Positions 2,114 to 63,858 of a DNA stretch of 64,000 nucleotides are shown here, piece after piece. Position 1 is the stretch's first letter; every line of letters begins with the position of its first letter. The DNA lies in contig CACYEN010000131.1 in assembly GCA_902773435.1 (NCBI GenBank), forward strand, positions 19,398-83,397, in the 5' to 3' direction. Under the pieces are notes generated by a model, which was not told the DNA's origin, did no database searches, and was given only the letters and a program-made list of their open reading frames with translations. The position numbers and the translations under genes are program-made. The stretch comes from an uncultured Lachnospiraceae bacterium. GTDB lineage: Bacteria > Bacillota > Clostridia > Lachnospirales > Lachnospiraceae.

Positions 2114-2764
2114 TCAATCATCAGACAGGACCACGATCAGGGTCCCGGCAGTGAACGTGACCTCCGCCGTCTCCGCGGCGATCTCATTGCTGATGCCGAG
2201 GGACGCGTGCGCCGATGTGAGGATTGCGCCGTCCGCGGCGTACCGGAATCCCCGGAGAACAACGCCCTCCACCGGTCCGTCGAGCGGAAGCAGCGACACA
2301 TATCTCCCGGCCGTCTCCTCTTTTCTCAGTGTAAACGGCCGGTCGGCGAGAAAGATCTCGTTCTTTTCGTCGATCAGCCTCGCGGGAATTCCGGCTTCAA
2401 GCGGGATGCGCAGATCCAGGACATTGGCGAGAAAGTGGTCCAGCCTTCCCCCGCATCCCCCGAGAAAATCGATCTCCGAGCTTCCGATCCTGACCGCGGC
2501 GCGGAGCGCGGATTCCGCATCGGAGAAGTCCTTCTCGCAGGGATAGGTCTCGACCGGGATCCCCCTCCCCTTCAGTTCATCGAGCGCCGCCCTGTCCGCC
2601 AGGCTGTCGTAGTCGCCCACCACGAGGTCAGGCCAAAGGCCGGCCTCCAGCATGACGTCGAGGCCCGAGTCCGCCGCGATCAGGAAATCGCTGTCCCTCC
2701 GGGCCGCGAACCCTGCGAGGAAAGCCGGGGAAAGATCCCCTCCTCCCGCAATCAGCGTCTTCAT
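2114..2764 (-). CDS. thiN: Thiamine pyrophosphokinase
   Basis: This 216-residue cytosolic enzyme transfers pyrophosphate from ATP to thiamine to make the cofactor TPP. The family signature VVGDYDSL lies near residue 50, followed by the EKDFSDAE segment and GGCGGRLDH around residue 100, all active-site elements of the Tpk fold. The ATG overlaps the rpe stop by four bases (ATGA), so translation is probably coupled. Location after rsgA and rpe is the standard Firmicutes arrangement. No TPP riboswitch is visible upstream, as expected for a gene inside an operon. Confidence 0.95.
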   Translation of the reverse strand: MKTLIAGGGDLSPAFLAGFAARRDSDFLIAADSGLDVMLEAGLWPDLVVGDYDSLADRAALDELKGRGIPVETYPCEKDFSDAESALRAAVRIGSSEIDFLGGCGGRLDHFLANVLDLRIPLEAGIPARLIDEKNEIFLADRPFTLRKEETAGRYVSLLPLDGPVEGVVLRGFRYAADGAILTSAHASLGISNEIAAETAEVTFTAGTLIVVLSDD

Positions 2765-3426
2765 TTCTCCCTGGCCCGGAATATATCCATGAACGCCTTC
2801 GCATTACCCCGGATATCTCCCCTGAACACGGAACTCCCTCCGACGATGACGTTGGCGCCGGCGTCCAGCACCTCGTGGACGTTCTCCCTGTAGATGCCGC
2901 CGTCCACCTGGATGTTGAGATCGAGGCCCAGCTTCTCCGCTTCCTCCCTGATCCTCGTGATCTTGGGGAGCGTGTCCTGACGGAGTTTCTGGCCTCCGAA
3001 ACCGGGCTCGACGGTCATGACGAGAACCATATCCACCTGCCCGAGGTAAGGGAGGATGTCCTCCACAGGTGTCCCGGGCTTCAGCGAGATGCCGACATCC
3101 TTCCCGCAGCCCCTGATCTCGCTGATCACGGCGCCCGGGTCCGGAGCCGCCTCGACGTGGAACGTGATGCCGTCCGCGCCGGCATCGGAGAAAACCTTGA
3201 TATACCTGATGGGATCGGTGATCATGAGATGGACGTCAAAGTAGAGATCAAGATGCTTTCTCAGAGTTTCGACGACGGGGACGCCGATCGACAGATTCGG
3301 GACGAACACGCCGTCCATCACGTCGACATGGAGCCACTCAGCCCCTCCGTCCCTCGCCTCCTCGATTTCCCGGCCGAGATTCCAGTAATCCGACGCGAGA
3401 ATTGACGGTGACAGAATCTTTTTCAC
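2761..3426 (-). CDS. rpe: Ribulose-phosphate 3-epimerase
   Basis: The 221-residue TIM-barrel enzyme interconverts D-ribulose 5-phosphate and D-xylulose 5-phosphate in the pentose phosphate pathway. Recognisable elements are ILASDYWNLG near the N-terminus, HVDVMDGVFVPNLS (catalytic Asp and metal ligands), DVHLMI, VEPGFGGQK and QVDGGI, which binds the phosphate. The start is GTG at 3426, with a strong AAGGAGG seven bases upstream. It overlaps the rsgA stop by four bases. An ATG start would lose the conserved N-terminus, which supports the GTG choice. Confidence 0.96.
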   Translation of the reverse strand: MKKILSPSILASDYWNLGREIEEARDGGAEWLHVDVMDGVFVPNLSIGVPVVETLRKHLDLYFDVHLMITDPIRYIKVFSDAGADGITFHVEAAPDPGAVISEIRGCGKDVGISLKPGTPVEDILPYLGQVDMVLVMTVEPGFGGQKLRQDTLPKITRIREEAEKLGLDLNIQVDGGIYRENVHEVLDAGANVIVGGSSVFRGDIRGNAKAFMDIFRAREK

Positions 3427-49065: not shown

Positions 49066-49884
49066 TTACAGCACGTCCGCGAAATGGACGCGCAGCTTCC
49101 GGAATACATGTGTGCCCAGAATAAACATAAGGACCGCCCACGCCCAGAAATAGGCGGTGTACCAGCCCCTCTCCCAGAACCAGGCCCGGCCGTAGATCGC
49201 GTCGCGGTAGCCCGTCACGATATAGTACATCGGGTTGATCCTGAATATCCAGGCAAACGACGACGACTCAAACGTCTTCAGGGAGAACATGATCGGAACC
49301 GACCAGATGCCGATCTGCAGGGCAATGGCGATAATCTGCGACAGGTCCCGGAAGAACACGACGACCGCGCAGGTGCCGTAGCAGATCCCGATCACCAGGA
49401 TGAACATCGCGGCGAAATAATAGACCAGCTGGATCAGATAGACCGAGGGGTAATGCCCGTAGAGGATCCCGATCACGATCGCGACCAGAATAAAGAACGC
49501 GTGCACAAAAAAAGCCGAGAGCGCCTTGACAAAGGGCAGGACGGCGATCTCGAACACGACCTTCTTCACGAGATAACTGTATTCAAGAAGAACGGCGGTG
49601 CCGGAGATCAGGATCTCCTGAGCGTAGAACCAGGGGACGATCCCGCACGTGAGATAGAGAACGAACGGGACGTCCGAGTCCGACGGGCTCTTGAACCCGA
49701 ATCCGAACACCAGCCAGTATACGAGCACTGTGACGACGGGCTGGACAAAAGCCCAGATAATGCCGAGGTAGGACCCGGCAAATCTGGTCCGGAAATCATT
49801 CTTTGCGAGTCTTCCGATCAGCCGCCTGTTCTTCGCGACTCCCGACAGAAGATCAATCGCGAACGGCTTACTTTGCCTCTTCAT
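49066..49884 (-). CDS. wzm: Polysaccharide ABC exporter membrane subunit
   Basis: An ABC-2 type permease of about 272 residues with six hydrophobic helices. The N-terminal amphipathic region RRLIGRLAKNDFRTRFAGSYLG is typical of Wzm/TagG proteins. It pairs with the downstream ATPase to export lipid-linked polymer. Two starts are possible: ATG 49884 (17-base overlap with rfbC) and ATG 49902 (35-base overlap). Neither has a strong ribosome site, so coupling to rfbC translation is likely. Confidence 0.93.
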   Translation of the reverse strand: MKRQSKPFAIDLLSGVAKNRRLIGRLAKNDFRTRFAGSYLGIIWAFVQPVVTVLVYWLVFGFGFKSPSDSDVPFVLYLTCGIVPWFYAQEILISGTAVLLEYSYLVKKVVFEIAVLPFVKALSAFFVHAFFILVAIVIGILYGHYPSVYLIQLVYYFAAMFILVIGICYGTCAVVVFFRDLSQIIAIALQIGIWSVPIMFSLKTFESSSFAWIFRINPMYYIVTGYRDAIYGRAWFWERGWYTAYFWAWAVLMFILGTHVFRKLRVHFADVL

Positions 49885-50458
49885 GGGTTCTGCCCGTCCC
49901 ATAATTTCTCGCCATATAGTCCCGGAACGTCTCCCAGCGGGTATCCTTGTCCGAGAGCGTCAGCGGAACGATGGGGATCAGCGGCCAGTCGATCGCGATA
50001 TCCGGATCGTCCCAGGCGAGCCCGCCCTCGTCGTTCGGGTGGTAGAAATCCGAGCACTTGTAGGTCAGCTCGGCTGTCTCCGTCAGCACATAGAAGCCGT
50101 GGGCAAACCCCTTGGGGATATAGAACTGCTTCCTGTTCCAGGACGACAGGCGCACGCCGAACCACCGTCCGAACGTCTCCGAATCCTCCCTCAGGTCGAC
50201 GGCGACGTCGAAGACCTCCCCCTTGACGACCCTCACGATCTTCTCCTGAGGGTAGTGGATCTGAAAATGAAGTCCGCGCAGCACGCCGCGCACACTCGAC
50301 GACTGATTGTCCTGCACGAAACTGCTCTCGATCCCCGCAGCCCTGAAATCGTTCAGGTTGTAGGTCTCCATGAAATAGCCGCGGCGGTCTCCGTAGACCT
50401 CCGGCGTAATGACTTTCAGCCCCTTAATATCGCAGGTTTCAACTGTGATTTTCCCCAT
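49868..50458 (-). CDS. rfbC: dTDP-4-dehydrorhamnose 3,5-epimerase
   Basis: From the ATG at 50458 the protein has 196 residues, usual for RmlC. The cupin fold shows DRRGYFMETYN, FVQDNQSSS, RGLHFQIHYPQEK (catalytic His), VAVDLR and KGFAHGFYVL. It epimerises C3 and C5 of dTDP-4-keto-6-deoxyglucose, the third step to dTDP-L-rhamnose. AAGGAAG lies upstream. Confidence 0.96.
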   Translation of the reverse strand: MGKITVETCDIKGLKVITPEVYGDRRGYFMETYNLNDFRAAGIESSFVQDNQSSSVRGVLRGLHFQIHYPQEKIVRVVKGEVFDVAVDLREDSETFGRWFGVRLSSWNRKQFYIPKGFAHGFYVLTETAELTYKCSDFYHPNDEGGLAWDDPDIAIDWPLIPIVPLTLSDKDTRWETFRDYMARNYGTGRTHEEAK

Positions 50459-50517
50459 ATTCCCGTTCTTCCTTCTTTTAGTCCCCGCGGCCGGAATCCC
50501 GGCCGCGGACACCGGTG

Positions 50518-51393
50518 TCAGACTCCGAGCCCTTCCGATATCTCAATCAGGTACTGCCCGTAGGCAGTCTTGAGAAGCGGCTGGGCGAGCGCGACCAGCT
50601 GCTCCCTGTCGATAAACCCTTTCTTGAAGGCAATCTCCTCTATGCAGGAGATATAGAGCCCCTGTCTCTTCTGAAAAGCAGACACGAAATCCGCCGCGTC
50701 GAGCAGCATGTCGTGGCTGCCCGTGTCGAGCCAGGCGAAGCCCCTGCCGAGCGTCTCGACGAACAGCTTTCCCCTCTTCAGGTACTCGTTGTTGACCGAG
50801 GTGATCTCGAGTTCCCCTCTCGCGGAGGGCTTCACGTTCCGCGCGATCTCCAGCACGTCGTTGTCGTAGAAGTAGAGGCCGGGCACGGCGTACTTCGACT
50901 TCGGATGCTCCGGCTTCTCCTCGATCGAGATCGCCCTGCCTTCCGCGTCAAATTCCACGACCCCGTACTCGCGGGGATCCTTGACGTAGTAGCCGAAGAT
51001 GGTCGCCCCGTCCTCCCTCTGCGCCGCCTCGTCAAGGACCTTGGAGAAGCTCTGGCCGTAGAAGATATTGTCGCCGAGAACGAGCGCCACCCGGTCGGAC
51101 CCCACAAAGTCCGCCCCGATGATAAACGCCTCCGCCAGGCCGCCCGGATGCTCCTGGACAGCGTAGGAGAAGCTCATGCCGAGCTGGCTCCCGTCGCCGA
51201 ACAGCTCCTCGAACGCGGGCAGGTCCCTCGGCGTGGAGATAATCAGGATGTCCCTTATGCCCGCCAGCATCAGTGTGGACAGCGGATAATAGATCATCGG
51301 CTTGTCGTACACCGGCATCATCTGCTTGCTCACTGCCTTGGTCAGGGGATAGAGCCTCGTCCCGCTGCCTCCGGCAAGTATAATTCCCTTCAT
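50518..51393 (-). CDS. rfbA: Glucose-1-phosphate thymidylyltransferase
   Basis: RmlA makes dTDP-glucose from dTTP and glucose 1-phosphate. The 291-residue protein begins [22 protein letters not shown], the nucleotide-binding loop, then [40 protein letters not shown] and [11 protein letters not shown]. The start is ATG 51393 rather than the adjoining GTG; GGGGGA is upstream. Confidence 0.97.
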
Positions 51394-51472
51394 CACATTT
51401 CCCCCGGATAACCGTAAATAGCTGTCGTGGCCGGCGGCGCGGCCGTCACAGAATCAAGATACCGCCTGCGCG

Positions 51473-52552
51473 TCACTCGCTGTACATCTCTTTGTAATAT
51501 GTCTGATAGGCGCCCGACGTCACGTGTTCCATCCACTCCGGGTTGGCGAAGTACCAGCCGATCGTCTTCCTGATCCCGTCCTCGAAAGTGGTCTCGGGAT
51601 ACCACCCGACCTCCTTCCGGATCTTGTCGGGCGCGATCGCGTATCTCCTGTCGTGGCCCTTCCTGTCCGCTACGTAGGTGATCAGGTCCTCCGTGACGTT
51701 CGCCTTCCGTGGATCGCTGTCCGGGAGCATGTCCCGGAGCGTGGAGATGATCGTCTTCACGATCACGATGTTCTGTCTCTCGTTGTGGCCGCCGATATTG
51801 TAGGTCTCGCCGAGAGTCCCCTTCTCCATGACGAGGTCGATGCCCTTGCAGTGATCCTCGACGTAGAGCCAGTCCCTTACGTTGAGGCCGTCCCCGTAGA
51901 CCGGAAGCTTCCTGCCGTTCAGGGCGTTGTTGATCATGAGCGGGATCAGCTTCTCCGGGAACTGGTAGGGCCCGTAGTTGTTGCTGCAGTTGGTGATGTT
52001 CGCCGGGAACCCGTAAGTATCCATGTAGGCCTTCACCATGAAATCGGAGGACGCCTTGGACGCGGAATACGGGCTGTGCGGGTCATACTTCGTCGTCTCA
52101 TAGAAATAGGTGTCCGGCTCGCTCAGGGACCCGTAGACCTCGTCCGTCGAGACGTGGAGGAACCGGTGGTCCTCCGGGTAGGAGCCGTCGGGCCTCTCCC
52201 ATGCCGCGCGGGCGGCATTCAGCATTACGAGCGTGCCGAGCACGTTCGTCCTCACGAAGACGCCCGGATCCCGGATGCTCCGGTCGACGTGGCTCTCGGC
52301 CGCGAAGTGGACCACTCTCGAGATGTCGTTGTCCCGGAAGATCTCCCCGATCGCGTCCGCGTCGCAGATGTCCGCCCGGATGAATGTATAATTCTCCCTG
52401 CCGGAGACATCCCTCAGGTTCTCGAGGTTGCCCGCGTAAGTCAGCTTGTCCACGTTGATCACGCGGATCGAATCGCCGTACTTTCCGAACAGGTAATGGA
52501 TGAAATTCGAACCGATGAAGCCGGCGCCGCCGGTCACGAGATAAGTGCGCAT
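51473..52552 (-). CDS. rfbB: dTDP-glucose 4,6-dehydratase
   Basis: RmlB, first gene of the polysaccharide operon. From the ATG at 52552 it has 359 residues; a GTG seven codons upstream is in frame but lacks support. VTGGAGFIGSNF binds NAD. HVSTDEVYGSL and YSASKASSDFM carry the catalytic Asp-Glu and Tyr-Lys, and DWLYVEDHC is also conserved. A GGGG stretch about nine bases upstream may serve as ribosome site. The 76-base gap to rfbA holds a small GGCCG/CGGCC hairpin. Confidence 0.97.
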   Translation of the reverse strand: MRTYLVTGGAGFIGSNFIHYLFGKYGDSIRVINVDKLTYAGNLENLRDVSGRENYTFIRADICDADAIGEIFRDNDISRVVHFAAESHVDRSIRDPGVFVRTNVLGTLVMLNAARAAWERPDGSYPEDHRFLHVSTDEVYGSLSEPDTYFYETTKYDPHSPYSASKASSDFMVKAYMDTYGFPANITNCSNNYGPYQFPEKLIPLMINNALNGRKLPVYGDGLNVRDWLYVEDHCKGIDLVMEKGTLGETYNIGGHNERQNIVIVKTIISTLRDMLPDSDPRKANVTEDLITYVADRKGHDRRYAIAPDKIRKEVGWYPETTFEDGIRKTIGWYFANPEWMEHVTSGAYQTYYKEMYSE

Positions 52553-52585
52553 AAAAAACCCCCGTTTTAACACATAATCACTGGA

Positions 52586-52754: not shown

Positions 52755-54470
52755 ATGTCAGCTCTGCGCAAACATATCACTTCATTTCCGGTACTGCTTC
52801 TGATCTCCACGTTCCTCTGCTCGATCCCGTTCGCGTTCATGAAGGTCTACTACATGTACGCGGACGATTATCTGATGAACTACATCGCGAACGGCTCCTA
52901 CGGCGTCGAGTACAGCGACCATCTCGTCTTTCCCCGGATCCTGTTCGGAACCGTGACGAAATTCCTGTACGGCATCACGAGATCGGTGAACTGGTACGCG
53001 GTCCTCCTGGTCGCGACGCTCTCCGTCTCCTTCGCGGTCTTCCACTACGTGATCACCAGGATGAGCGAAAACCGGATCGCTTTCCTCATCTCCCTGGTCT
53101 TCAACGCGGTCACCGTCCCGATGATGATCACGTTCACGGTCTGCGGTTTCCTCGCCGTCGCGGCGGGGTCGCTGCTCCTCGTGTGCTCGTTCTACAGAAA
53201 GAAATCACTCCACCTGATGGTCGGTGGCGCGCTGCTCATGCTCTGGGGCTACGTAATCCGGACGAACACGTTCGTGCCCGTCGTCGGCATGATGCTCCCG
53301 CTCGCCCTTCAGGCCCTCACCGTGCTGATCCGCGAGAAGGACGGGGAGGAGAAGAAAGTCTATGTGAGGAACCTCATGCTGCTCGCCGCGACCGCCGCGG
53401 TCTCCCTGCTCTGCCTCCTCGGCATGCGCAAGTGGGAGCAGACCGCCTACGGCAGCGAGGGCTGGCCGGAGTACAACAGCTACAACGACGCGAGATCCGA
53501 GGTCCTCGACTTCCCGATGGTCGGCTATCAGACGCTCGGGGAAGAATTCCGCAAGATTGATCTCACGACCGAGCAGTACACGCTCCTCAACAGGTGGTCC
53601 TTCTGCGACAAGAGGTCCTTCCCGGAGGAGCGCCTCCTGCAGATCGCCGCGATCCAGAAGAATATCTACTCCCACCCGTGGAGGCTCCAGTACACGAAGA
53701 AGACCATAAAAGGCCGCCCGAACAGGTATATCATCGCGTTCCCGTTCGTCATCTTCCTGGTCTTCCTGATCATCGACCGCAGGTTCCGGTGGTTCACGGC
53801 GCTCCTTGAGGCGGGCATCTTCTTCGCGGCGATTCTCGCCCTTTGCTACATCCGCATGCGCTTTCTTCTCCGGGTGTCGGTCCCCCTGTCCATGGTCAGC
53901 ATCTACACGGTCCTCGTCTGCACGAGGGCGAAGGAGAGCCTCCTCCGGGGATCCCACGCCGCGGTGAAAGCCGCGCGGATAGCCGCGCTGGCCGCGGCCT
54001 GCGTTCTCACGGGGTACGTCACGGTCAGGTTCTCCATGGGGTTCTACGATTCCGTCTTCTATCTCCGCTACCCGGAGATCAAGGTGTCGGCGCAGGCCGC
54101 GCTCGACGAGGTCAGATCGCACCCCGACCGCGTATATCTCGCCGAGAGCTACGCCTTCGGCCGCATGTACTACTACGGCCACCCGATCAGCGACGTGCAC
54201 ACGATCGACGACTATCAGCACCTGATCCGCTCGGGAAGCTGGGACAGCTTCACCCCGAGATATTACCGGATCCTGGAGGATCTCGGCTTCTCCGATCCCG
54301 ACAACCTGATATCCAGCCTTCTCACCGAGGACAACTATTATATGATCACCGACACCCCGGAGATCACCAGGAACTACCTGGCATCGGTGACGGGCAGGGA
54401 GATCCGGGTGAAGTCCGAGGAGATCGGGGACGGCGTGCTCAAGCTCGCGAGGTTCAGCTACAAGGACTGA
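52755..54470 (+). CDS. Multi-pass membrane protein, GT-C-like, unassigned family
   Basis: From the ATG at 52755 the protein has 571 residues; the longer frame runs back into non-coding DNA. About ten hydrophobic helices occupy residues 8-430, followed by an extracytoplasmic tail of about 140 residues. Early in the first outer loop is YMYADDYLMNY, whose paired aspartates are placed as in GT-C glycosyltransferases. I do not recognise the family beyond that. It is a lone plus-strand gene between two convergent and divergent sugar operons. The ribosome site is weak (AAAGGG). Confidence 0.75.
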   Translation: MSALRKHITSFPVLLLISTFLCSIPFAFMKVYYMYADDYLMNYIANGSYGVEYSDHLVFPRILFGTVTKFLYGITRSVNWYAVLLVATLSVSFAVFHYVITRMSENRIAFLISLVFNAVTVPMMITFTVCGFLAVAAGSLLLVCSFYRKKSLHLMVGGALLMLWGYVIRTNTFVPVVGMMLPLALQALTVLIREKDGEEKKVYVRNLMLLAATAAVSLLCLLGMRKWEQTAYGSEGWPEYNSYNDARSEVLDFPMVGYQTLGEEFRKIDLTTEQYTLLNRWSFCDKRSFPEERLLQIAAIQKNIYSHPWRLQYTKKTIKGRPNRYIIAFPFVIFLVFLIIDRRFRWFTALLEAGIFFAAILALCYIRMRFLLRVSVPLSMVSIYTVLVCTRAKESLLRGSHAAVKAARIAALAAACVLTGYVTVRFSMGFYDSVFYLRYPEIKVSAQAALDEVRSHPDRVYLAESYAFGRMYYYGHPISDVHTIDDYQHLIRSGSWDSFTPRYYRILEDLGFSDPDNLISSLLTEDNYYMITDTPEITRNYLASVTGREIRVKSEEIGDGVLKLARFSYKD

Positions 54471-54622: not shown

Positions 54623-54976
54623 TCAGAACAGGTTGAAGACGATGATGCCCGCGATGATCAGCGCGTTTCCGGCCAGCTTTCTCTTTGTCACCGGCTCCCG
54701 GAAGAACAGGAAGGAGAGAAGCATGACCCACAGATTGCCGATCGACTCCATGACGGACCCGCTCTGCATGCTCACGTTCCTCGCGTAGCCGAGGACGCAG
54801 AGCAGCATTCCGACGACCATCAGGCCGTAGCCCGCGATCACCTTGATATTCATGTATTCCCTGATTACGCTGCTGTGGGGTTCCGACGCGCTCTTCTTCA
54901 GGAGCATCTGCGAGAAGGCAGCGATGAGCGAGGAGAGAGCAAAGAGAAGGACCCACGGATTCCATTTATTCAACAT
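54623..54976 (-). CDS. Small four-helix EamA/SMR-type membrane protein (ArnF/ArnE-like), 117 residues
   Basis: Four hydrophobic helices with a SQMLLKKSA end to helix one and a VMLLSFLFFREP motif in helix three, as in half-size EamA and SMR proteins. The pair ArnE/ArnF of this size flips undecaprenyl-phosphate aminoarabinose. Here too a second four-helix gene overlaps by 11 bases and a polyprenyl GT2 lies upstream, which favours a lipid-sugar flippase over drug efflux. Last gene of its operon. Confidence 0.82.
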   Translation of the reverse strand: MLNKWNPWVLLFALSSLIAAFSQMLLKKSASEPHSSVIREYMNIKVIAGYGLMVVGMLLCVLGYARNVSMQSGSVMESIGNLWVMLLSFLFFREPVTKRKLAGNALIIAGIIVFNLF

Positions 54977-55376
54977 CGCTGTTCACCGTCATGATTCCGC
55001 AGAACACAATAATGATCCCGATCAGTCTGAGCGGCTTTACCGGCTCATGGAAGATCAGGACACTCCATATGAAGGTCCAGAAGATTGCGAACGCCCTGTT
55101 CGCGTAGGCGATCGAGAGGTCGTATCTCTTAATGATCTGCTGCCACACGACCGCGTAGAGGCCGAGGCAGAGCACCTCAAGAAAGAGCCACCTGATCCCG
55201 GCCGGGCTCAGGCCGCTGATCTCCATGCCGAAGATCCTGATGCTTCCCGGATGGGTTCCCGCCATCTTCGCGCAGACCGACGAGACGGTGTACAGCATGA
55301 CCGCCAGCTGGATCGCCAGGATCGAAAGAAGTCCCTTCGGCCCTTTTATCTCATGTTTTTTCGTATTCTCCATCAT
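54966..55376 (-). CDS. Small four-helix EamA/SMR-type membrane protein, 136 residues
   Basis: Partner of the downstream four-helix protein. Helix three carries FAIFWTFIWSVLIFHEP, the same position and Glu-Pro ending as in its partner. The N-terminus is basic and cytosolic. Start candidates are GTG 55379, ATG 55376 and ATG 55373; GTGGAG upstream fits either ATG, and the first overlaps the ATP-grasp stop. Two different half-size proteins encoded together suggest a heterodimer. Confidence 0.82.
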   Translation of the reverse strand: MMENTKKHEIKGPKGLLSILAIQLAVMLYTVSSVCAKMAGTHPGSIRIFGMEISGLSPAGIRWLFLEVLCLGLYAVVWQQIIKRYDLSIAYANRAFAIFWTFIWSVLIFHEPVKPLRLIGIIIVFCGIMTVNSDVE

Positions 55377-57781
55377 CACTCCACAATAACCCTGACGTAC
55401 CTGTCTATATGCTGAAGGGCGTCCGTCATCCCGCCGGCGTCGTCAAACGCAAGGATCATGGCCCCGACAGCGAACGACGCGTTCCGGAAGCGGGACACGG
55501 GGTCCCCCTCCTCCACGAAGAGCTTCTGAAGCAGGATGTGTCTCACGAACCCGGGATCGACCTCGAGTCCCCTGAAGATCCCGTCCGACGCCGAGTGCAG
55601 GATGTAGGACGAAGTGTATCTGTAGGCCCGCGCCGCGGCGGGAAGCCCCGGCGGATCCCCGACCGCCTGACGGACGACCGCGAGGGCGAGATCCGCCCCG
55701 CACGCCTCCCTGATCGCGTCGGAGATCAGGTTTCCCCCGCTTCTCGGCCCGAGCTCCATGATATACACGGTTCCGTCCGCGCGGACGATGTACTCGAGAT
55801 TGAAGGCCCCGATCGAGAGGCCGAGCAGGTCGATCATCCCCTGTACCTGCCGCATCGCCTCGTCCTGATACTTCCGGTCCTGGCAGGACGGGAAGCTGTG
55901 GCCGGTCGGCGTGAACCTGGACACGGCGTTGTCGTGGTGCTGGTCACAGAGCCCCCTGAAGACGATCCTTCCCCCGTCGACAAAGATGTCCCCGTCGATC
56001 CGGAAGCCCTCGTGGTCCAGGAACTCCTCGACCATAATCTCTCCCGATCTCGCGTAGCTTCGCGCCTCCTCCCAGGCAGCGTCGAACTCCGGCCCGGGCA
56101 GGGCGAGGCCCACCCCCTTGCTGCCGGACGAGTCCGTCGGCTTGACGATGACCCGCGTCCCGATCTCCCGCGCGAACGCGGAAGCCCGGTCCCGGTCGGA
56201 GAAGCATCCGAAGCGCGGGTGGGGGAAGCCGTTCTCAGCCTGGAAGCGGCGGAACAGGTTCTTGTGCGTCAGGAGCCAGACGGAGGAGAGCGGGTTCGTC
56301 GGGAGCCTGAGGTTCCCGGCGACATAGGCGGCTGTCGGAGCCGACACGTCCGACGCGTAGGAGACAATCCCGTCGATCCCAAGCTCCCGGGCCTTCGCGA
56401 GCACCTGTTCCCGGTCCACCGTGCTGATATTATAGTACTCGTCGGCGGCGGCGTGGGCGGGGTTCGAAGGAAGGTAGTCCACGCTGACGACGTGATAGCC
56501 CGCGCGCTTAGCCGCGAGCGTCGCGGTCTTCTGGTAGAAGTTTCCCCCGAGCATCATGATCTTCTTCCGGGGCAGGGAACTCTCCTCCGCCAAAGAGGGC
56601 TCGATCGCGATCGCCGCCCTCACCTCGAGCGCGGCCTTCTCCGCCTCTTCCACATCCGCCGTCTCCAGGATGACATGCCCTATGCGGTCGGTCCCGTTCC
56701 TCATCGTGTGGACGGTGTCCCCGACCTCCGGGTCCACGCGAAGCCCGCTCAGCTTTCCCTCCAGTTCACCGATCCTGAACCGGTCAATACTCTTCACGGT
56801 TCCGTTGACTTCGCTGAAGATCAGCCTGGAAATGCAGGGAACGGCCCTCCGGGGCTCGAGATCGGGCTCCCTCCCGAAGGCGATATCGATGATCGCCCTG
56901 TAGTAGTCGATGCCCGTATAGATCGAGATCAGCTCGGGAATGCAGGTCGCTCCGCAGCGTCCGCCCGCCTCAAGTACGGAGATCTCCCCGTCGGGCCTCA
57001 CGATCATGTCGCAGTTGACCGCGCAGTTGTTGAGCCCCGTCGCACAGATGATCCGCCCGAGCTGTTCTTCGGCGCGGCGGCTGACTCCGGCGTCCATGGG
57101 AAGCGGGAACACGTGCCCCGCGGGGACGACGATTCCGCCGGCGGAGGCGTTGATTTTCCCGTGCGGCATGAAGAGACCCGCCCTGTGATTCACGACGAGC
57201 GCGTCGACGCCGATCTCTATGCCCTCCTCGAATTTCTCCACAACGAAGTGATCCGTCCTTGAGGCGCTGCATGCGCTCTCCCACGCCGCGGGAAAGGCCT
57301 CCTCTTCGTCCACCTTCGTGATCCCGCGGCTTCCGGACACGTCACACGCCTTGACCATGACCGGGAAGCCGATCTCCCGCGCTGCGGAAAGCCCCTCAGA
57401 GAGGCTGCGGACGACGCGGTGCGGGGAGGTGTTCACGATACCTCTCCACACGTCCTTCATGAGCGCCTTGTCCGAGAGAATTCTCGCTGCGCTCCCCGAT
57501 ATCCCGGGGAGGCCGAGCTCGTCACAGACAAGTCCGAGGGACCGGACGGCGACGTCCGTCCCGGTCGTCACCGCGGCGTCGATGCCCTCGGCTCTCGCCG
57601 CGGCAAGCACCGCCGGTGGATCGGCGGTATTGATCTCCAGTACCCTGTCCGCGATCCGGAATCCCGGATAATTTCCCGGCACGCTCAGCACCACGGTCGA
57701 TATTCCCATCTCCCTGGCCTTTCGGATCAGGGGCTCCTGATAGAGCCCCGCGCCGAGAATCATCAGCTTCTTCCCGCTCAT
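55376..57781 (-). CDS. Tandem ATP-grasp ligase, 801 residues
   Basis: The ATG at 57781 overlaps the GT2 stop as ATGA; the much longer frame is antisense-like read-through. Residues 1-400 and 406-801 are each a full ATP-grasp unit with its own pre-ATP-grasp fold. Openings are KKLMILGAGLYQEPLI and KKIMMLGGNFYQKTAT. ATP-lysine segments are GFPVMVKACDVSGSRG and IVKPTDSSGSKGVG. Metal sites are VLEAGGRCGATCIPE and IMELGPRSGGNLI. ATP-grasp ligases join a carboxylate to an amine or similar group through an acyl phosphate. Neither substrate can be read here. Both halves look catalytically competent. Coupling to a lipid-sugar GT2 and small flippases suggests action on a surface-glycan precursor. Confidence 0.9.
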   Translation of the reverse strand: MSGKKLMILGAGLYQEPLIRKAREMGISTVVLSVPGNYPGFRIADRVLEINTADPPAVLAAARAEGIDAAVTTGTDVAVRSLGLVCDELGLPGISGSAARILSDKALMKDVWRGIVNTSPHRVVRSLSEGLSAAREIGFPVMVKACDVSGSRGITKVDEEEAFPAAWESACSASRTDHFVVEKFEEGIEIGVDALVVNHRAGLFMPHGKINASAGGIVVPAGHVFPLPMDAGVSRRAEEQLGRIICATGLNNCAVNCDMIVRPDGEISVLEAGGRCGATCIPELISIYTGIDYYRAIIDIAFGREPDLEPRRAVPCISRLIFSEVNGTVKSIDRFRIGELEGKLSGLRVDPEVGDTVHTMRNGTDRIGHVILETADVEEAEKAALEVRAAIAIEPSLAEESSLPRKKIMMLGGNFYQKTATLAAKRAGYHVVSVDYLPSNPAHAAADEYYNISTVDREQVLAKARELGIDGIVSYASDVSAPTAAYVAGNLRLPTNPLSSVWLLTHKNLFRRFQAENGFPHPRFGCFSDRDRASAFAREIGTRVIVKPTDSSGSKGVGLALPGPEFDAAWEEARSYARSGEIMVEEFLDHEGFRIDGDIFVDGGRIVFRGLCDQHHDNAVSRFTPTGHSFPSCQDRKYQDEAMRQVQGMIDLLGLSIGAFNLEYIVRADGTVYIMELGPRSGGNLISDAIREACGADLALAVVRQAVGDPPGLPAAARAYRYTSSYILHSASDGIFRGLEVDPGFVRHILLQKLFVEEGDPVSRFRNASFAVGAMILAFDDAGGMTDALQHIDRYVRVIVE

Positions 57782-58698
57782 AGGTTCACCTTGTCCCGCA
57801 CGATATACTGCGGTGTCGAGTAGACTGACAGCACGATCTCCCCGATATACTCCCCGATAATTCCGAGAACCAGAAGGATCAGGCCGAAGAAAATCAGCAG
57901 GATACAGACGAGAGAGGACCAGCCCATCGTCATCCCGGGATGAAGAATCTTGTGAATGACCGTCACGACCGCGGCGATGAAGCCCACCACCGAGGTGACG
58001 CCCCCGACCACCGAGGCGATGCGGAGCGGAAGCACCGAGAAATTCCAGTACGCCATCCAGAGTTTCAGCAGCTTTCTCAGCGTATAGCCGGACTCGCCGT
58101 ATTCCCTTTTGTGGTGCTCGATCTCGACATTTCCGATATTGTGCGTGCACCGGAAGAAGATCCCGTCGACGTAGGGGTTGTAGTTCTTGTACTGGATCAC
58201 CTGATCCCGGACATTCTTCGTGATCATCCAGAAGTTGCTGGATTCTATGTCTTTGGGCCTTCCGAGCAGCATGCTGGACGACACCTTGTTGAGCCAGCTC
58301 GTCACGCGCTTCCCGAACCTGTTCGTGCTCTTTCTGTACACGCCGTAGACGACGTCGAAGCCGTCTTCCATCCTCCCGATGATCTTCCTCAGCTGGGACG
58401 GATGCGTCTGCATATCGTCGTCCATGCCGATGCAGAAGTCGCCCTCTGCGTAGTTGAGGCCGCACATAAGGGCATTGTGCTGGCCGAAATTCCTCATAAG
58501 GCTGATCCCCTTCACCTCGGGATACTCCGCCGCGAGCTCCCTGATCTTATCGTAGGTTCCGTCCGCAGAGCAGTCGTTGACCAGCACGAATTCGCATCCG
58601 TAGCCGTCCATCCGGGAGAACTCCTCCCTCACGAGGCGCACGACCTCCCCGATCGTTTTCTCGGAATTGTAGCAGGGGATTATCACTGACACGAGCAT
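57778..58698 (-). CDS. Polyprenyl-phosphate glycosyltransferase (ArnC/GtrB-like GT2)
   Basis: The 306-residue protein has a GT-A domain with VSVIIPCYNSEKTI, LVNDCSADGTYD and MDDDMQTHP (Asp93-95), then two C-terminal helices at about 225-250 and 257-285. This is the layout of enzymes that move one sugar from a nucleotide donor to undecaprenyl phosphate on the inner face. GGAGAA is nine bases before the ATG. It starts the coupled four-gene operon with the ATP-grasp and two EamA proteins. Confidence 0.92.
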   Translation of the reverse strand: MLVSVIIPCYNSEKTIGEVVRLVREEFSRMDGYGCEFVLVNDCSADGTYDKIRELAAEYPEVKGISLMRNFGQHNALMCGLNYAEGDFCIGMDDDMQTHPSQLRKIIGRMEDGFDVVYGVYRKSTNRFGKRVTSWLNKVSSSMLLGRPKDIESSNFWMITKNVRDQVIQYKNYNPYVDGIFFRCTHNIGNVEIEHHKREYGESGYTLRKLLKLWMAYWNFSVLPLRIASVVGGVTSVVGFIAAVVTVIHKILHPGMTMGWSSLVCILLIFFGLILLVLGIIGEYIGEIVLSVYSTPQYIVRDKVNL

Positions 58699-58728
58699 GG
58701 CATTGTTCTCCTAAGATAAAAATGTCAG

Positions 58729-58744
58729 GACCGCCGACGCGGTC
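58729..58744. repeat. 16-base palindrome GACCGC-N4-GCGGTC, copy A
   Basis: A perfect 6-bp inverted repeat between the desulfhydrase and GT2 genes. The following 12 bases (CACCGCGGGATAA type) are shared with copy C, so 25 of 28 bases match over 58729-58756. Confidence 0.6.
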
Positions 58745-58771
58745 ACCGCGGGATAAAAGATGAGGCCTTCG

Positions 58772-58787
58772 CGCCGCCGGCGCGGTC
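58772..58787. repeat. 16-base palindrome, imperfect copy B
   Basis: CCGCCGGCGCGGTC with two mismatched outer bases, overlapping the stop codon of the PLP enzyme gene. It lies 43 bases from copy A. Confidence 0.45.
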
Positions 58788-59784
58788 ACCCCCGGGAGCG
58801 CGACCGGCCCAGCGCGTCAAAGAACAGCGGCAGGCCGCCCGTATTGATGAAGAGGATCTTCTTCCCCGAGATACCGTTCTCCCGCAGGTAATCGCACATC
58901 CCCCTCCAGGCCTTCCCGGTGTACTCGGGGGCGAGCGCGACAGAATTCTGCAGGAACATGTCCCGGACCGCCTGCGTCACGCGCCCGTCGACGATGCCGT
59001 ACCCGCCGCAGTTCCTGCCGGTTTCAAGATGGATCCTCTCGTCGATCCTCTCCGGCCCGGGGACGTCCGCCCCGTCGGAAGCCCTGTCGGCGAAGTAGCT
59101 TCTTACGGTCTCCCGGAGCACGCTCCGCGCTCTCTCACCAGTTCTCGAGGAGACGGAGATGCCGAGGATCCTGTCCTCATCGCGAAGCTCCATCGCCCCG
59201 GCGATCAGGCCGCCCTGTGTGGCTCCCGTCCCGTAAGGGACGGCGATCAGGTCAAAGCGGATGCCGAGCTCCTTCTCCTCAGCGAGGATCTCCCGGTAAG
59301 CCGAGGCATATGCCCGCGCGGCAATCCCCTCTCTCCCGGTTCCGAACCGGTTCCCGTAGATGTAGTACGGATTCCTCCCCTCGCTCCGGAAGCGCTCCAT
59401 CTCCTCATCGACGGCATCCGCGATCCGGTCCGCCGGGCACGTCCGGACCGGAACGCCGAATCCCTCCGTGATCATCTCATTAAAGGAAATGTCCGTCCCT
59501 TCCCTCTCCCCTCCGGGCCTCGTCGCGATCATTCTGGCGGGTATTCCGCTCACGGCGCACATCCCGGCAAGAATCCTGCAGAGGTTCGACCTGGCGTCGC
59601 CGTAGATCAGCATGGCGTCGTATCCGCCCTCCGTGAGGTCCCGCATGAACTCCCAGCCGATCCTGACCTTGTTGCCTCCGAAGGAGAACGGCTGGAGGTC
59701 CTCCCTCTTCATATAAAATTCATTTCCGGGATCCTCTTTCCAGAGCACCCTGGTGATTGGGGTTGAGACAACCGGATCCGTCAT
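58786..59784 (-). CDS. PLP-dependent D-cysteine desulfhydrase / ACC deaminase-like enzyme
   Basis: A 332-residue fold-type II PLP enzyme. Lys39 in SFGGNKVRIG should bind PLP; KREDLQPF precedes it, and YGTGATQGGLIAGAM forms the phosphate-binding loop. Members deaminate D-cysteine, ACC or related amino acids; specificity is not readable. AGGAGG lies 11 bases before the ATG. It has its own promoter and precedes the GT2/ATP-grasp operon by 87 bases, so it could supply or remove an amino acid used there, but that is inference. Confidence 0.85.
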   Translation of the reverse strand: MTDPVVSTPITRVLWKEDPGNEFYMKREDLQPFSFGGNKVRIGWEFMRDLTEGGYDAMLIYGDARSNLCRILAGMCAVSGIPARMIATRPGGEREGTDISFNEMITEGFGVPVRTCPADRIADAVDEEMERFRSEGRNPYYIYGNRFGTGREGIAARAYASAYREILAEEKELGIRFDLIAVPYGTGATQGGLIAGAMELRDEDRILGISVSSRTGERARSVLRETVRSYFADRASDGADVPGPERIDERIHLETGRNCGGYGIVDGRVTQAVRDMFLQNSVALAPEYTGKAWRGMCDYLRENGISGKKILFINTGGLPLFFDALGRSRSRG

Positions 59785-59817
59785 GATTTCTTACGCCTCC
59801 TGAAAAAGACTTTAACT

Positions 59818-59846
59818 ATCGTATAACCTTTTCCGACCACCGTCAA
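59818..59846 (-). promoter_or_regulatory. Promoter for the PLP enzyme gene and perhaps the GT2/ATP-grasp operon
   Basis: TTGACG at 59841-59846 and TACGAT at 59818-59823, 17 bases apart. Its -35 box lies only 14 bases from that of the divergent promoter. Confidence 0.65.
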
Positions 59847-59860
59847 TGGGATTCTCCACC

Positions 59861-59889
59861 TTGAAGAAGCCCCCGGATTCTTATATAAT
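59861..59889 (+). promoter_or_regulatory. Promoter for the aminotransferase-yfhO operon
   Basis: TTGAAG at 59861-59866 and a consensus TATAAT at 59884-59889 with 17-base spacing, about 38 bases ahead of the start codon. Confidence 0.8.
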
Positions 59890-59926
59890 AGCGAATGTAT
59901 GCACTGTTATGATCGGGAGAAACACC

Positions 59927-61063
59927 ATGATGATCGACTTTAACATTCCGCCCTTCGCGGGAACGGAACCGGAATACATGAAGCAGGCCGCACTCAACAG
60001 GAAGATCTGCGGGGACGGCCCGTTTACAAAGAAATGCCAGGCCTGGATCAGCGAAAAGTTCGGCCTGCCCGCCTCGTTCCTCACGACCTCGGGGACATCG
60101 GCCCTCGAGATGAGCGCGCTGCTCTGCGATATCCGGCCGGGCGATGAAGTCATCATGCCCTCCTATACCTTCTGCTCCACGGCGGACGCCTTCGTCCTCC
60201 GCGGCGCCTCGCTCGTGTTCGTCGACATCAGGCCGGACACGATGAACATCGACGAGCGGCTGATCGAGGACGCCATAACGGAGCGGACCCGGGCCATCGT
60301 CGTCGTCCACTACGCCGGAGTCGCCTGCGAGATGGATACGATCATGGATATCGCGCGCAGGCACTCCCTCTTCGTCGTGGAGGACGCCGCCCAGGCGTTC
60401 GGCTCCTCCTATAAGGACAGGTTCCTCGGGACCATCGGCGATTTCAACTGCTTCTCCTTCCACGAGACGAAGAACTTCTCCATGGGGGAGGGGGGCGCGC
60501 TCGCTCTCCGCGATCTTGCTTATCGCGACAGGGCCGAGATCTACAGGGAGAAGGGAACGGACCGCAGCAGGTTCTTCCGCGGCCAGGTCGATAAGTACAC
60601 CTGGCAGGACTACGGCTCGTCCTATCTGCCGAGCGACATCAACGCCGCCTACCTCTGGGCCGAGCTCGAGGTCTACGACCGCATTTACGGCGACCGCATG
60701 CGGACCTGGAACGAATATGACCGGGTCTTCCGCCCGCTCGCCGGCGAGGGGCTTTTCGAAGTTCCCTCCGTCCCGGCGGAGTGCTGCCACAACGCGCATA
60801 TGTACTACCTGAAAGCCCGGGACCTCGGCGAGCGCACAGCCCTGATCCGGCACCTGAAAGAGAACGGCGTGCTCGCCGTCTTCCACTACATTCCCCTGCA
60901 CTCTTCCCCGGCCGGACTCCGGTTCGGGCGGTTCTTCGGCGAAGACAGATATACCACGCGCGAGAGCGAGCGTCTCGTCAGGCTGCCGCTGTACTACGGC
61001 CTCTCAGACAGGGACCGTGGCCGCGTGATCGAGGCGGTTCTTTCATTCTACCGCCGCGCGTAG
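59927..61063 (+). CDS. Sugar aminotransferase, WecE/RffA-like
   Basis: From the ATG at 59927 (GGGAG seven bases upstream; ATG 59930 is also possible) the protein has 378 residues of the DegT/DnrJ/EryC1 family. Such enzymes transfer an amino group from glutamate to a keto-sugar nucleotide. TTSGTSALEMSALL binds the PLP phosphate. Lys182 in HETKNFSMGEGGAL is the Schiff-base lysine. The N-terminal FNIPPFAGTE and overall pattern resemble dTDP-4-keto-6-deoxy-sugar aminotransferases such as WecE. Its likely substrate class, dTDP-4-keto-6-deoxyglucose, is made by RfbB in this window. Confidence 0.9.
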   Translation: MMIDFNIPPFAGTEPEYMKQAALNRKICGDGPFTKKCQAWISEKFGLPASFLTTSGTSALEMSALLCDIRPGDEVIMPSYTFCSTADAFVLRGASLVFVDIRPDTMNIDERLIEDAITERTRAIVVVHYAGVACEMDTIMDIARRHSLFVVEDAAQAFGSSYKDRFLGTIGDFNCFSFHETKNFSMGEGGALALRDLAYRDRAEIYREKGTDRSRFFRGQVDKYTWQDYGSSYLPSDINAAYLWAELEVYDRIYGDRMRTWNEYDRVFRPLAGEGLFEVPSVPAECCHNAHMYYLKARDLGERTALIRHLKENGVLAVFHYIPLHSSPAGLRFGRFFGEDRYTTRESERLVRLPLYYGLSDRDRGRVIEAVLSFYRRA

Positions 61064-61074
61064 AGGAGGCTCTC

Positions 61075-63858
61075 ATGGAAAGATTCAACAGGAAATTCGG
61101 CGGCATCGTCATACTTCTCCTGGCCAACGCGGTTTTTTTCGCGCTCTATTTCCGTTTTTTCACCGGCGAGGCTGTCTATCTCTACACGGATATCGGCTCG
61201 GACTCGATCAATTCCAGTCTCCCGATCATCTCCATGCTGCAGCGGCTCTTCGCCGCCCGCGACTTCTCGGGATTCAGCTTAAACTCCGGGATCGGGGCTC
61301 CGACGCTCGTGTCGGCCCTCAAGTACCTGAATCCCATCAAGACGCCGCTTCTTTTCTTTACCGGGGACAGGCTTCCCCTCGGGCTCATGGTTGAGCTCCT
61401 GATCCAGACCAACGTCATCGCCTTCTTCTCCTGGTTTTTCTTCCGCAGGCTTCTCTCCCACGGCGGGGCGGCGCTGTTCGCCTCTCTCGCGTGGACATTT
61501 TCCGGATATATAACGCTCTGGAGCCAGAACCTGACGACCGGCAGCTGCATGGCGATGTTCACGGTCATGATGGCCGCCCTCCTTCCCGTGCTCATGAAGC
61601 CGACGGTGAGGAGATGCCTGCTCCTTACGCTCTCCCTCTCGCTGTTTCTCCTCACAAACTACTATTACTGCTACATGTCGGCGTTCTACGTCCTTGTCTT
61701 CCTGATCTTTTACTCCGCGGGATCCGGGAAGACGGTCACGCAGTTCTTCATCAGCGGGCTGGAAGTCCTCGGAAGCGCCGTCTTCGCGGTCTTCCTCGCG
61801 GCCGCGCCGCTGATCCCCTCTTTCACGGGGTTCTCCGGCTCGGGCAGAACGAACGCCCTCTCCGTCGTCGGGTCAGGGCTGAAGCTGGCGCAGGGAAGGG
61901 AGCTGTTCACGCTTCTCGGGAGACTGTTCTCGGTCAATTCTCTCGGGACAGCCGCGGAGTACACCGGGGTCATGAACTACTACGAGGCGGCGGCTCTCTC
62001 CACAACCGCCCTCGCCGTCACAGCTGTCATCTACCTGATCGCGGTCGACAGGACGCGGGTGATCACCGTGCTCGCGGCAATCGTGTGCGCCGCTTCACTC
62101 ATCGTCAAGAATACCGGCGCTTTCGTCCAGTTCAATATCGGCGTGCACCGCTACTCCTTCATGATCGTCTTCACCTCAGCCGTTGCCGTCGGCTTCTTCA
62201 TGAAGGAGATCCTGACCCAGCCCTATGGGATACCCCTCTTCTGGTCGGCGATCATCTCGCTGGCCCTGTCCGCGGCGGCCATCTTCTACCTGGCGACACA
62301 GGACGCCGGTCTCGGCGTCCGGACCGACGTGCGGACTCTCAAGTACGCGGGGGCGGCGTGCCTCATTTTCTCGGTTCTCGTGATGCTCTACGCGTTCGGC
62401 TTTAAGATTTCGAGGGCGGTTCCGCTCCTCATGATGCTCGCCCTTATGGCAGAGCTCGTCGTCATGAATTACGACACGGTCTACACGAGACGTGTCCTGA
62501 CGCCCGCCGAATATGCCGCCCACATGGACGACGGCACGAAGGAGGCGGTCTCCGCGGTACAGTCGGGCGACGGCGGCCTCTACAGGATCTCCGCGGGCAG
62601 CGACACGGACGACGCGAACATCGGCATGCTGCTCGATTTTCCCGCCGCCTCCGTCTACAGCAACGTGAACGCGGCTTCCCTGACTTCGCTCACAAAACTC
62701 CACGGAACCTGCCAGCTCTCGCCGAATCATTTCCTGGTGGACGGGGACGAGTTCGGCCAGGCACCCCTCCTCGCCGTCCGGTACCTGATCAAACCGAATT
62801 CGGGGCTGTCGACGGACACCCCCTCCTCGCTGCTCTATGAGAAAGTCGGAGAGACCCCCGACGGAAGCCGGGTCGTCTACCGCAGCAGGGCCGCGCTCCC
62901 GTTCGGATATCTCTACACAGACAGCGTCTCGGCGGCCGATATCAGGGAGCTTCCGCTTCCAGAGCGGATGCTGACGCTGACGGACACCTGTTACAGAACG
63001 GACGGAATCTCCACGTCCGGGAACGCGGACGCTTCCACGGACTCCTCTCCGGAGACCGATCCCGGGGAGAGCGACGGCGGGGACGAACCCGGCCGGAACC
63101 GGTCGGATCAGGAAGGCCTCTTCACGCAGGAGGATCTCCTGGATTCCGGGAAAGAGTCCAATCACCTGAAGCTTCGAAAGACAAGTTCCGGCATCGTCTT
63201 CAGGCCGACCGGCGGCGATCCTTACATCTACTACAACATTGGGAAAGCTGAAAAAGAGACCGTCCGCATGCTCTATATGCGGCTGAAGAGCACGAACTTC
63301 AACAAGGTGCGCCAGATGCAGATCTTCTTTATGAGCGCTGAAAATGAGGATCCGGATCCGGCGGACAGCAGGCTCTTCTTCCTCGGGCGCGGCTATCCTG
63401 AGACCTGCATCATCCTCCCGGACGATGTGCGGCGGATCCGTCTCGACTTCCCCGAGGATTATCTCGATACGAATGTGGCGGAACTCTCGATCATCTCGGC
63501 GAAGGACATCGTCGGCATGTACGACGGCCTCGCGAAGACGGACATCACCGATATCTCCATGAATGGAGGGACCTACCGGGCGACGGTCAGTTCGGACAAA
63601 GGGGGCACCCTCTGTGTCCCGCTGCTCTTCTCCGGAAGCTGGCGCGCGAAGGTGAACGGAGATGCCGCGGATGTCCGCAGCATCAACGGGGGGCTCGTCG
63701 GAATTGAACTTGAAAAGGGCAGATCCGAGGTGGTCCTGACCTGGGAGACGCCGTTCTGGAAGGCTGGCCTTGCGGTGAGCGCTGCCATGGTCCTGCTCTT
63801 CATCATTCTCTTCGCGGCCGCTCCCGTCCTTGAGAGGCGCGCGCGGAGGAGCCGCTGA
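61075..63858 (+). CDS. YfhO-family multi-pass membrane protein (GT-C-like)
   Basis: The ATG at 61075, with GAGGAGG upstream, gives 927 residues; the longer frame is read-back into the aminotransferase. The first loop YLYTDIGSDSINSSLP contains acidic residues typical of GT-C enzymes. About twelve hydrophobic helices follow to about residue 460, then a large outer domain with a Ser/Asp/Glu-rich insert (about 640-685), and a last helix near 895-915. Bacillus YfhO decorates lipoteichoic acid using lipid-linked sugar. The gene lies 11 bases after the sugar aminotransferase, suggesting it transfers the amino sugar made there. Confidence 0.88.
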   Translation: MERFNRKFGGIVILLLANAVFFALYFRFFTGEAVYLYTDIGSDSINSSLPIISMLQRLFAARDFSGFSLNSGIGAPTLVSALKYLNPIKTPLLFFTGDRLPLGLMVELLIQTNVIAFFSWFFFRRLLSHGGAALFASLAWTFSGYITLWSQNLTTGSCMAMFTVMMAALLPVLMKPTVRRCLLLTLSLSLFLLTNYYYCYMSAFYVLVFLIFYSAGSGKTVTQFFISGLEVLGSAVFAVFLAAAPLIPSFTGFSGSGRTNALSVVGSGLKLAQGRELFTLLGRLFSVNSLGTAAEYTGVMNYYEAAALSTTALAVTAVIYLIAVDRTRVITVLAAIVCAASLIVKNTGAFVQFNIGVHRYSFMIVFTSAVAVGFFMKEILTQPYGIPLFWSAIISLALSAAAIFYLATQDAGLGVRTDVRTLKYAGAACLIFSVLVMLYAFGFKISRAVPLLMMLALMAELVVMNYDTVYTRRVLTPAEYAAHMDDGTKEAVSAVQSGDGGLYRISAGSDTDDANIGMLLDFPAASVYSNVNAASLTSLTKLHGTCQLSPNHFLVDGDEFGQAPLLAVRYLIKPNSGLSTDTPSSLLYEKVGETPDGSRVVYRSRAALPFGYLYTDSVSAADIRELPLPERMLTLTDTCYRTDGISTSGNADASTDSSPETDPGESDGGDEPGRNRSDQEGLFTQEDLLDSGKESNHLKLRKTSSGIVFRPTGGDPYIYYNIGKAEKETVRMLYMRLKSTNFNKVRQMQIFFMSAENEDPDPADSRLFFLGRGYPETCIILPDDVRRIRLDFPEDYLDTNVAELSIISAKDIVGMYDGLAKTDITDISMNGGTYRATVSSDKGGTLCVPLLFSGSWRAKVNGDAADVRSINGGLVGIELEKGRSEVVLTWETPFWKAGLAVSAAMVLLFIILFAAAPVLERRARRSR

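Follow-up and report, generated by a model that had tools for sequence, protein, structure and literature searches.

The window analyzed here, a stretch of 64,000 nucleotides from an uncultured Lachnospiraceae bacterium, contains an operon in which a GT2 glycosyltransferase gene is coupled to the gene of a double ATP-grasp ligase, and this pairing recurs at nearly all of the related loci that we surveyed. We consider it fairly likely that these genes encode a transmembrane glycosylation system with a dedicated acylation of Fuc4N, of which we infer the substrate, the acyl group, the order of the steps, the flipping and the acceptor. In the proposed mechanism, RmlA/RmlB and WecE would supply dTDP-Fuc4N, and GT2 would place Fuc4N onto undecaprenyl phosphate. 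Either before or after the GT2 step, a core LAL-type ATP-grasp ligase would couple a carboxylate, in all likelihood that of an amino acid, to the 4-amine of the sugar; a PALP-type PLP enzyme would produce or alter the amino acid, which the second ATP-grasp half would extend or prepare. Once acylated, the lipid-linked sugar would be flipped by a pair of EamA proteins, and YfhO, perhaps together with an orphan GT-C-like protein, would transfer it to a rhamnose-type wall polysaccharide.

One coupled operon on the minus strand (54623-59784) encodes the PALP-family enzyme, GT2, the protein with two ATP-grasp halves and a pair of half-size EamA proteins. A gap of 87 bases separates PALP from GT2, and the genes that follow run into one another: the GT2 stop and the ATP-grasp start share an ATGA overlap, 4 bases are common to the end of the ATP-grasp gene and the start of the first EamA gene (given the listed GTG start), and 11 bases to the two EamA genes. 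The WecE and YfhO genes lie on the plus strand, divergent from this operon. The initial annotation of this DNA had described the same coupled genes, preceded by a PLP amino-acid enzyme and with a sugar aminotransferase and YfhO divergent from them; ORF coordinates and the Pfam and NCBIfam families agree with that description, including the PALP family match at 58786-59784.

The GT2 gene (57778-58698, minus strand; PF00535, 7.5e-30) encodes the proposed undecaprenyl-phosphate Fuc4N transferase. Its nearest NCBIfam models are PgfS (1.3e-47; 162.6 bits against a cut-off of 500) and the ArnC-type PRK10714 (1.6e-40), both under cut-off, and the ArnC model scored 139 bits against a cut-off of 529 (NCBIfam). 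A simple hydropathy count placed two C-terminal hydrophobic segments at 220 and 254. The protein thus has the sequence features of a membrane-linked GT-A (GT2) enzyme, with undecaprenyl phosphate as its predicted substrate.

When 299 family genomes were searched with the ATP-grasp protein, 43 genomes matched at 1e-40, and every match except the window's own covered about one half of the protein. We fetched 40 regions, then 20 more from 42 genus genomes by alignment of the N half, and added L081, a single named locus from an uncultured Lachnospiraceae MAG. N-half orthologues, defined by scores above 400 bits with models built from the fetched sequences, were present at 46 loci (window included) from 45 genomes, G152 contributing two. 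Excluded from the 46 were L057 and L058, with ligases of 266 and 232 bits, and the loci from the wider phylum; five matched genomes (G090, G105, G153, G217 and G292) are absent from the locus counts, and G090 is counted among the 25 ligase-positive genomes described below. Among 398 phylum genomes, a score above 400 bits was reached only in the window's own, and 12 others matched at 205-247 bits. In one of these 12 (G532, locus L140), GT2 and WecE occur together with an EamA pair and a further ATP-grasp.

A GT2 gene was found within 6 kb of the N-half ligase orthologue at 43 of the 46 loci, the nearest one within 1.8 kb in all 43. The three loci scored as lacking it were L050, L075 (a weaker GT2 of 153 bits) and L116, which ends near a contig start. 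By comparison, none of 14 control loci holding only a C-type paralogue had a GT2 of at least 150 bits; looser clustering of these control loci gave a broad-group GT2 in 2 of 14 and a DegT sugar aminotransferase in 10 of 14. Absence of conserved linkage of the ATP-grasp gene with the GT2 and EamA genes had been set beforehand as the refuting outcome, and the idea came through this test strongly. Viewed from the other gene, the 42 genus genomes contain 25 close GT2 genes (more than 380 bits), of which 24 adjoin a ligase or ligase fragment and the remaining one, next to PALP, is cut off where its contig ends. Locus L130 repeats the gene order of the window, including the ligase-ligase fusion, and has a second GT2-ligase pair beside the first. 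Ligase distances correlated with those of GT2 (Mantel r 0.74, 45 pairs; 0.75 with WecE distance removed, 20), PALP (r 0.76, 27) and WecE (r 0.43, 22), and shared ancestry inflates all of these correlations.

Only GT2 and the ligase are near constant, since within 6 kb of the ligase PALP was found at 26 of the 46 loci, WecE at 21, each EamA gene at 16 and YfhO at 12. RmlB was likewise present at 12 loci, an orthologue of the C half at 8, another ATP-grasp at 4 and the orphan membrane protein at 4. The co-occurrence across relatives that had been proposed as a check of the whole set stood for GT2 and the ligase, with the EamA pair limited to those 16 loci and the tandem fusion to the window and L130.

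The double ATP-grasp protein (55376-57781, minus strand; 801 amino acids counted from ATG) consists of two differing ligase paralogues, residues 1-398 and 405-801. The N-terminal half (56588-57781, minus strand), which we propose as the core ligase, carries the LAL_C2 domain that marks the L-amino acid ligase family (PF18603, 4e-14; 53.1 bits against a Pfam cut-off of 29.4), and the C-terminal half (55376-56569, minus strand) matches PF13535 (1.9e-14 at 542-686). Aligned with BacD, a ligase of solved structure, both halves retain residues at its active-site positions, and we take these to be active-site residues here as well. Searched against the PDB, the N-half profile matched 4DIM best, at 433 bits, followed by the amino-acid ligases BL00235 and BacD. 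The 4DIM entry was deposited as a phosphoribosylglycinamide synthetase although it matches this ligase profile so closely; from its sequence, the deposited name is probably a misnomer.

Most relatives keep the two ligases apart, and in some the PLP enzyme is fused to a ligase; both features had been missed in the earlier reading. The C-half orthologue is a separate gene in 6 of the 8 loci that have it (L061, L062, L081, L116, L117 and L118), and the ligase-ligase fusion occurs in 2 loci only, the window and L130, so we rejected the idea that the tandem protein defines the system. A phage-borne origin of the ligase was also discarded: a phage collection gave 4 weak matches, at ∼23% identity and to the C half.

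The WecE orthologue, a dTDP-4-amino-4,6-dideoxygalactose transaminase, is encoded at 59930-61063 on the plus strand (NF008687, 600.9 bits; cut-off 375). Its start is probably at 59930, within an ORF that runs from 59846, because residue 29 is the first one covered by the family match. WecE places an amine at C4 of a 6-deoxyhexose, and this amine would be a natural target for the ATP-grasp ligase. We defined a ligase-positive genome by an N-half orthologue at 1e-100, which gave 25 of the 299 family genomes. WecE exceeded its cut-off in all 25 of these versus 71 of the 274 others (Fisher p 4.2e-14), and an earlier list of ligase genomes, made from the fetched loci, had given 24 of 24. The proposal of a WecE-type product as the amino sugar is thus well supported. 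The two genes need not be neighbors: WecE lay anywhere in the fetched stretch at 23 of the 46 loci, and some WecE genes are away from the ligase. Within the genus the association is weak, with WecE in 22 of 22 ligase genomes (two only as fragments) versus 15 of 20 others (p 0.02), or in 20 of 22 versus 15 of 20 when the WecE cut-off is applied (p 0.23).

The PALP-family PLP enzyme (58786-59784, minus strand; PF00291, E 2e-26) is D-cysteine desulfhydrase/ACC deaminase-like, and we propose that it supplies or shapes the amino acid. It falls below the NCBIfam cut-offs of TIGR01275 (114.3 versus 289.4), TIGR01274 (100.2 versus 392) and CuyA (124.3 versus 450). On alignment to solved enzymes, the equivalents of the Lys, Ser and Tyr residues that we presume to be catalytic were invariant across 11 PALP sequences. 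PALP is fused to an ATP-grasp protein in 11 relatives. The fusion partner is the N-type ligase in 9 loci (L048, L050, L061, L062, L081, L115, L116, L117 and L118) and an ATP-grasp of a third type in 2 (L045 and L052). PALP is also present in all 8 loci with the C-half orthologue. These PALP-ligase fusions, together with the ligase-ligase fusions, suggest that the PLP enzyme and the ligases act in one series of steps. High-scoring PALP (more than 430 bits) occurred in 11 of the 299 family genomes, all 11 ligase-positive. The 5 remaining PALP genomes hold a weaker group (301-378 bits; L157-L161), in which a PylC-like ATP-grasp gene adjoins PALP in 4 and lies ∼5 kb off in 1, and a DegT sugar aminotransferase lies within ∼3 kb of PALP in 5 of 5. 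Pfam confirms all ten of these PylC-like and DegT genes, which apparently belong to a separate glycan acylation set.

PALP is missing within 6 kb at 20 of the 46 loci, and 7 of these 20 hold another acyl-type gene. A PaaK-like protein is found in 6 of them (L067, L071, L074, L076, L077 and L078), such as the adenylate-forming protein near the GT2-ligase pair of L074 (12309-13604, minus strand), and a GNAT in L073. For the PaaK-like proteins of L074 and L077, scores with the NCBIfam models for PaaK and its relatives stayed below the cut-offs, and the four that were scanned had no Pfam match. Weaker PaaK-like relatives (46-59 bits) occur in L116, L125 and L127, all with PALP; L076, without PALP, and L072, with PALP, come from one genome. 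We also inspected ten stretches from ligase-negative genus genomes, picked for GT2 and WecE matches near each other. Seven of them (L147-L153) have WecE and YfhO together with distant forms of GT2 (231-249 bits) and ATP-grasp (83-115 bits), WecE being ∼11 kb from the distant GT2 in L151. From the PaaK-like, GNAT and distant ATP-grasp variants, it appears that the acid or the way of acylation may differ between loci that otherwise keep the system constant. As a more speculative extension, which we put forward tentatively, a swappable capping cassette might sit on a constant GT2/WecE/YfhO core. Here the lipid-linked sugar would receive a custom cap, an amino acid or dipeptide produced in place by a PLP enzyme and two ATP-grasp ligases, and elsewhere the PLP enzyme and second ligase could give way to a GNAT, a distant ATP-grasp or an acyl-activating enzyme of PaaK-like type, so that relatives would bear different acyl codes on a single type of wall polymer. 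A protein of ∼325 amino acids is encoded between the distant GT2 and the distant ATP-grasp in L148 (10685-11659, minus strand), with similar-sized ORFs in L149-L151 and L153; the two copies scanned had no Pfam match.

The two EamA/SMR half-size proteins are the proposed flippase subunits. The first (54966-55379, minus strand) scored 27.2 bits with EamA, for which the Pfam cut-off is 28.2, and 1.4e-8 with ArnE; the second (54623-54976, minus strand) scored 32.5 bits with EamA, over the cut-off, and 1.7e-7 with ArnE. Both are far below the NCBIfam cut-offs for ArnE/ArnF (35.0 and 31.4 versus 92; 21.7 and 16.6 versus 99). No GtrA was detected in the window's own genome, which is 89% complete, and the EamA pair is found there instead; the lack of GtrA fits the EamA pair as the flippase. 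Across relatives, a role for EamA as the universal flippase was not upheld, given its presence at 16 of 46 loci and a GtrA-type protein in 12 of the 17 ligase genomes tested (window's own genome among the 17). Three genus genomes (G209, G323 and G338) had neither GtrA nor, in the fetched stretch, an EamA pair. In L133, a WbqC-like protein is encoded between the ligase and the EamA genes (2327-3037, minus strand).

YfhO (61075-63858, plus strand; PF09586, 1.1e-42) is the proposed transfer enzyme and has a carbohydrate-binding-like C-terminal domain. Foldseek matched its structural model (12 sequences, pLDDT 68) to AftD (3e-7), OST (9e-5) and EmbB (1e-3), with further matches to carbohydrate-binding modules from E 2e-3, and Asp39 was invariant in 12 aligned sequences. 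By this model, which is of middling confidence, YfhO has the characters of a GT-C transfer enzyme. Among the genus loci other than the window that show WecE, 13 in all, YfhO adjoins it in 11, and this placement, along with the fold, supports the GT-C role first suggested for YfhO. AftD and OST are described as typical structure matches of YfhO proteins, and a carbohydrate-binding domain is suggested for one YfhO, in the portion of a review consulted here (PMC8035078).

The orphan polytopic membrane protein (52755-54470, plus strand) had been named as another possible transfer enzyme. It has no Pfam or NCBIfam match, and Foldseek gave no match to its model (5 sequences, pLDDT 63) at 1e-3 or better; the first six matches were to ArnT, OST, DPY19 and AftA (E 4e-3 to 2e-2). 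On this model of middling confidence it is likely a GT-C protein, possibly the second one of the system. Its fold is only weakly GT-C-like, and it occurs within 6 kb of the ligase at 4 of 46 loci.

Three genes that, from their Pfam families (dTDP_sugar_isom, NTP_transferase and GDP_Man_Dehyd/Epimerase), we take to be RmlC, RmlA and RmlB (49868-52573, minus strand) would provide dTDP-4-keto-6-deoxyglucose for both rhamnose and Fuc4N. The window between 30 and 52 kb encodes RmlA, RmlB, RmlC and RmlD types, Wzm/Wzt types, tandem GT2 proteins, a PMT_2 GT-C protein, an initiating sugar transferase and an LCP-family protein, and so has the look of a rhamnose wall-polysaccharide locus. RgpF lies ∼3 kb from the module in L061. 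We infer a rhamnose-type wall polysaccharide as the acceptor. A 1458-amino acid protein encoded within the wall-polysaccharide locus (43287-47663, minus strand) joins a methyltransferase domain to two GT2 domains that follow it.

Several other readings of these genes were weighed. That an ordinary glycosylation operon merely has an ATP-grasp gene as a chance neighbor is scarcely credible: nothing beyond the single-locus view favors it, and we rejected it on the GT2 counts (43 of 46 loci versus 0 of 14 control loci), which show that the linkage is not due to chance, and on the genome association with WecE. It is very unlikely that a soluble peptide or dipeptide is the product of the ATP-grasp and PLP genes, which would then simply adjoin the glycosylation operon. 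BacD and BL00235 form dipeptides, and the N-half profile matches these LAL members; against this stand the GT2 beside the ligase, the co-variation of the two, WecE in every ligase-positive genome, and a sugar aminotransferase close to the relatives of the PLP enzyme in all 5 of the other loci that have them. We also regard as improbable a reverse polarity like that of the Campylobacter capsule, in which the ATP-grasp protein would amidate a glycan carboxylate with an amine; the PLP enzyme would here supply the amine, or ammonia, through elimination. Members of the PALP-type PLP family release ammonia. In the part of the report on Cj1438 drawn on here, its C-terminal ATP-grasp domain amidates glucuronic acid (PMC11800379). 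However, the constant genome partner WecE yields a sugar amine and not an acid, and no uronic acid gene was seen among those window proteins, a subset of the window genes, that were scanned with Pfam.

The order of steps within the acylating glycosylation system is a separate matter. Should the system be right, we give serious, if not preferential, weight to the ligases acylating dTDP-Fuc4N in the cytosol, with GT2 then loading the N-acyl sugar. Co-variation of GT2 and ligase would be expected if GT2 recognizes the acyl sugar, and the ATP-grasp/DegT loci without this GT2 suggest that acylation is possible without it; the ATGA overlap and the paired duplication are compatible with acylation in the cytosol and on the lipid alike.

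If the acylating glycosylation system is as proposed, it equips the decoration of wall polymers by undecaprenyl-phosphate sugars with a dedicated step of N-acylation, served by an amino-acid enzyme of its own, and predicts N-acylated Fuc4N on the surfaces of these bacteria. It would also give a functional setting to the solved ligase structure 4DIM, whose name is doubtful, and would extend the proposed use of an EamA pair for flipping beyond the Arn system.

Among known systems, the streptococcal protein-glycosylation enzyme PgfS is the best NCBIfam match of GT2, which nevertheless scores far below the PgfS cut-off, and we know of no ligase in the PgfS system. The ligase resembles BacD, BL00235 and 4DIM, its closest solved relative by sequence, in its LAL_C2 domain and aligned active-site residues, but unlike BacD and BL00235 its genetic setting is a lipid-linked sugar and not dipeptide antibiotics. 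The Arn pathway, with ArnC, ArnE/ArnF and ArnT, is an undecaprenyl-phosphate 4-amino sugar route that involves a formyl group. The system predicted here from its genes shares with it a GT2 acting on undecaprenyl phosphate, a 4-amino sugar, an EamA/SMR pair and a GT-C enzyme; it differs in that scores with the ArnC, ArnE and ArnF models all stay below the cut-offs, an acceptor other than lipid A is expected, and a ligase stands where the Arn route has the formyl group (Arn genes are listed in PMC12826051). The Cj1438 capsule amidoligase of Campylobacter likewise brings GT2 and ATP-grasp together in glycan decoration, but there, in the passages of PMC11800379 drawn upon, the ATP-grasp is TupA-like, a sugar acid is amidated and GT2 builds the capsule chain.

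The closest likeness in overall plan, with a GT2, a small candidate flippase and a YfhO/GT-C enzyme, is to the multi-component transmembrane glycosylation systems CsbB-GtcA-YfhO, CsdAB with CflA, and GacI-GacK-GacL. In the sections consulted of a review of these systems, a GT2 with membrane helices charges undecaprenyl phosphate, some systems act on rhamnan wall polymers, the flippases are of GtrA or Wzx types, and no ligase is listed among the systems tabulated (PMC8035078). Unlike them, the system described here would use a WecE product as its sugar, has an EamA pair as candidate flippase and a dedicated ATP-grasp ligase, and often includes a PLP enzyme. A search of the open-access literature found no description of a ligase and PLP module acting on lipid-linked Fuc4N. 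The known frame is a multi-component transmembrane glycosylation system with Arn-like logic, and what appears new, by the open-access papers searched, is the module of ligase and PLP enzyme.
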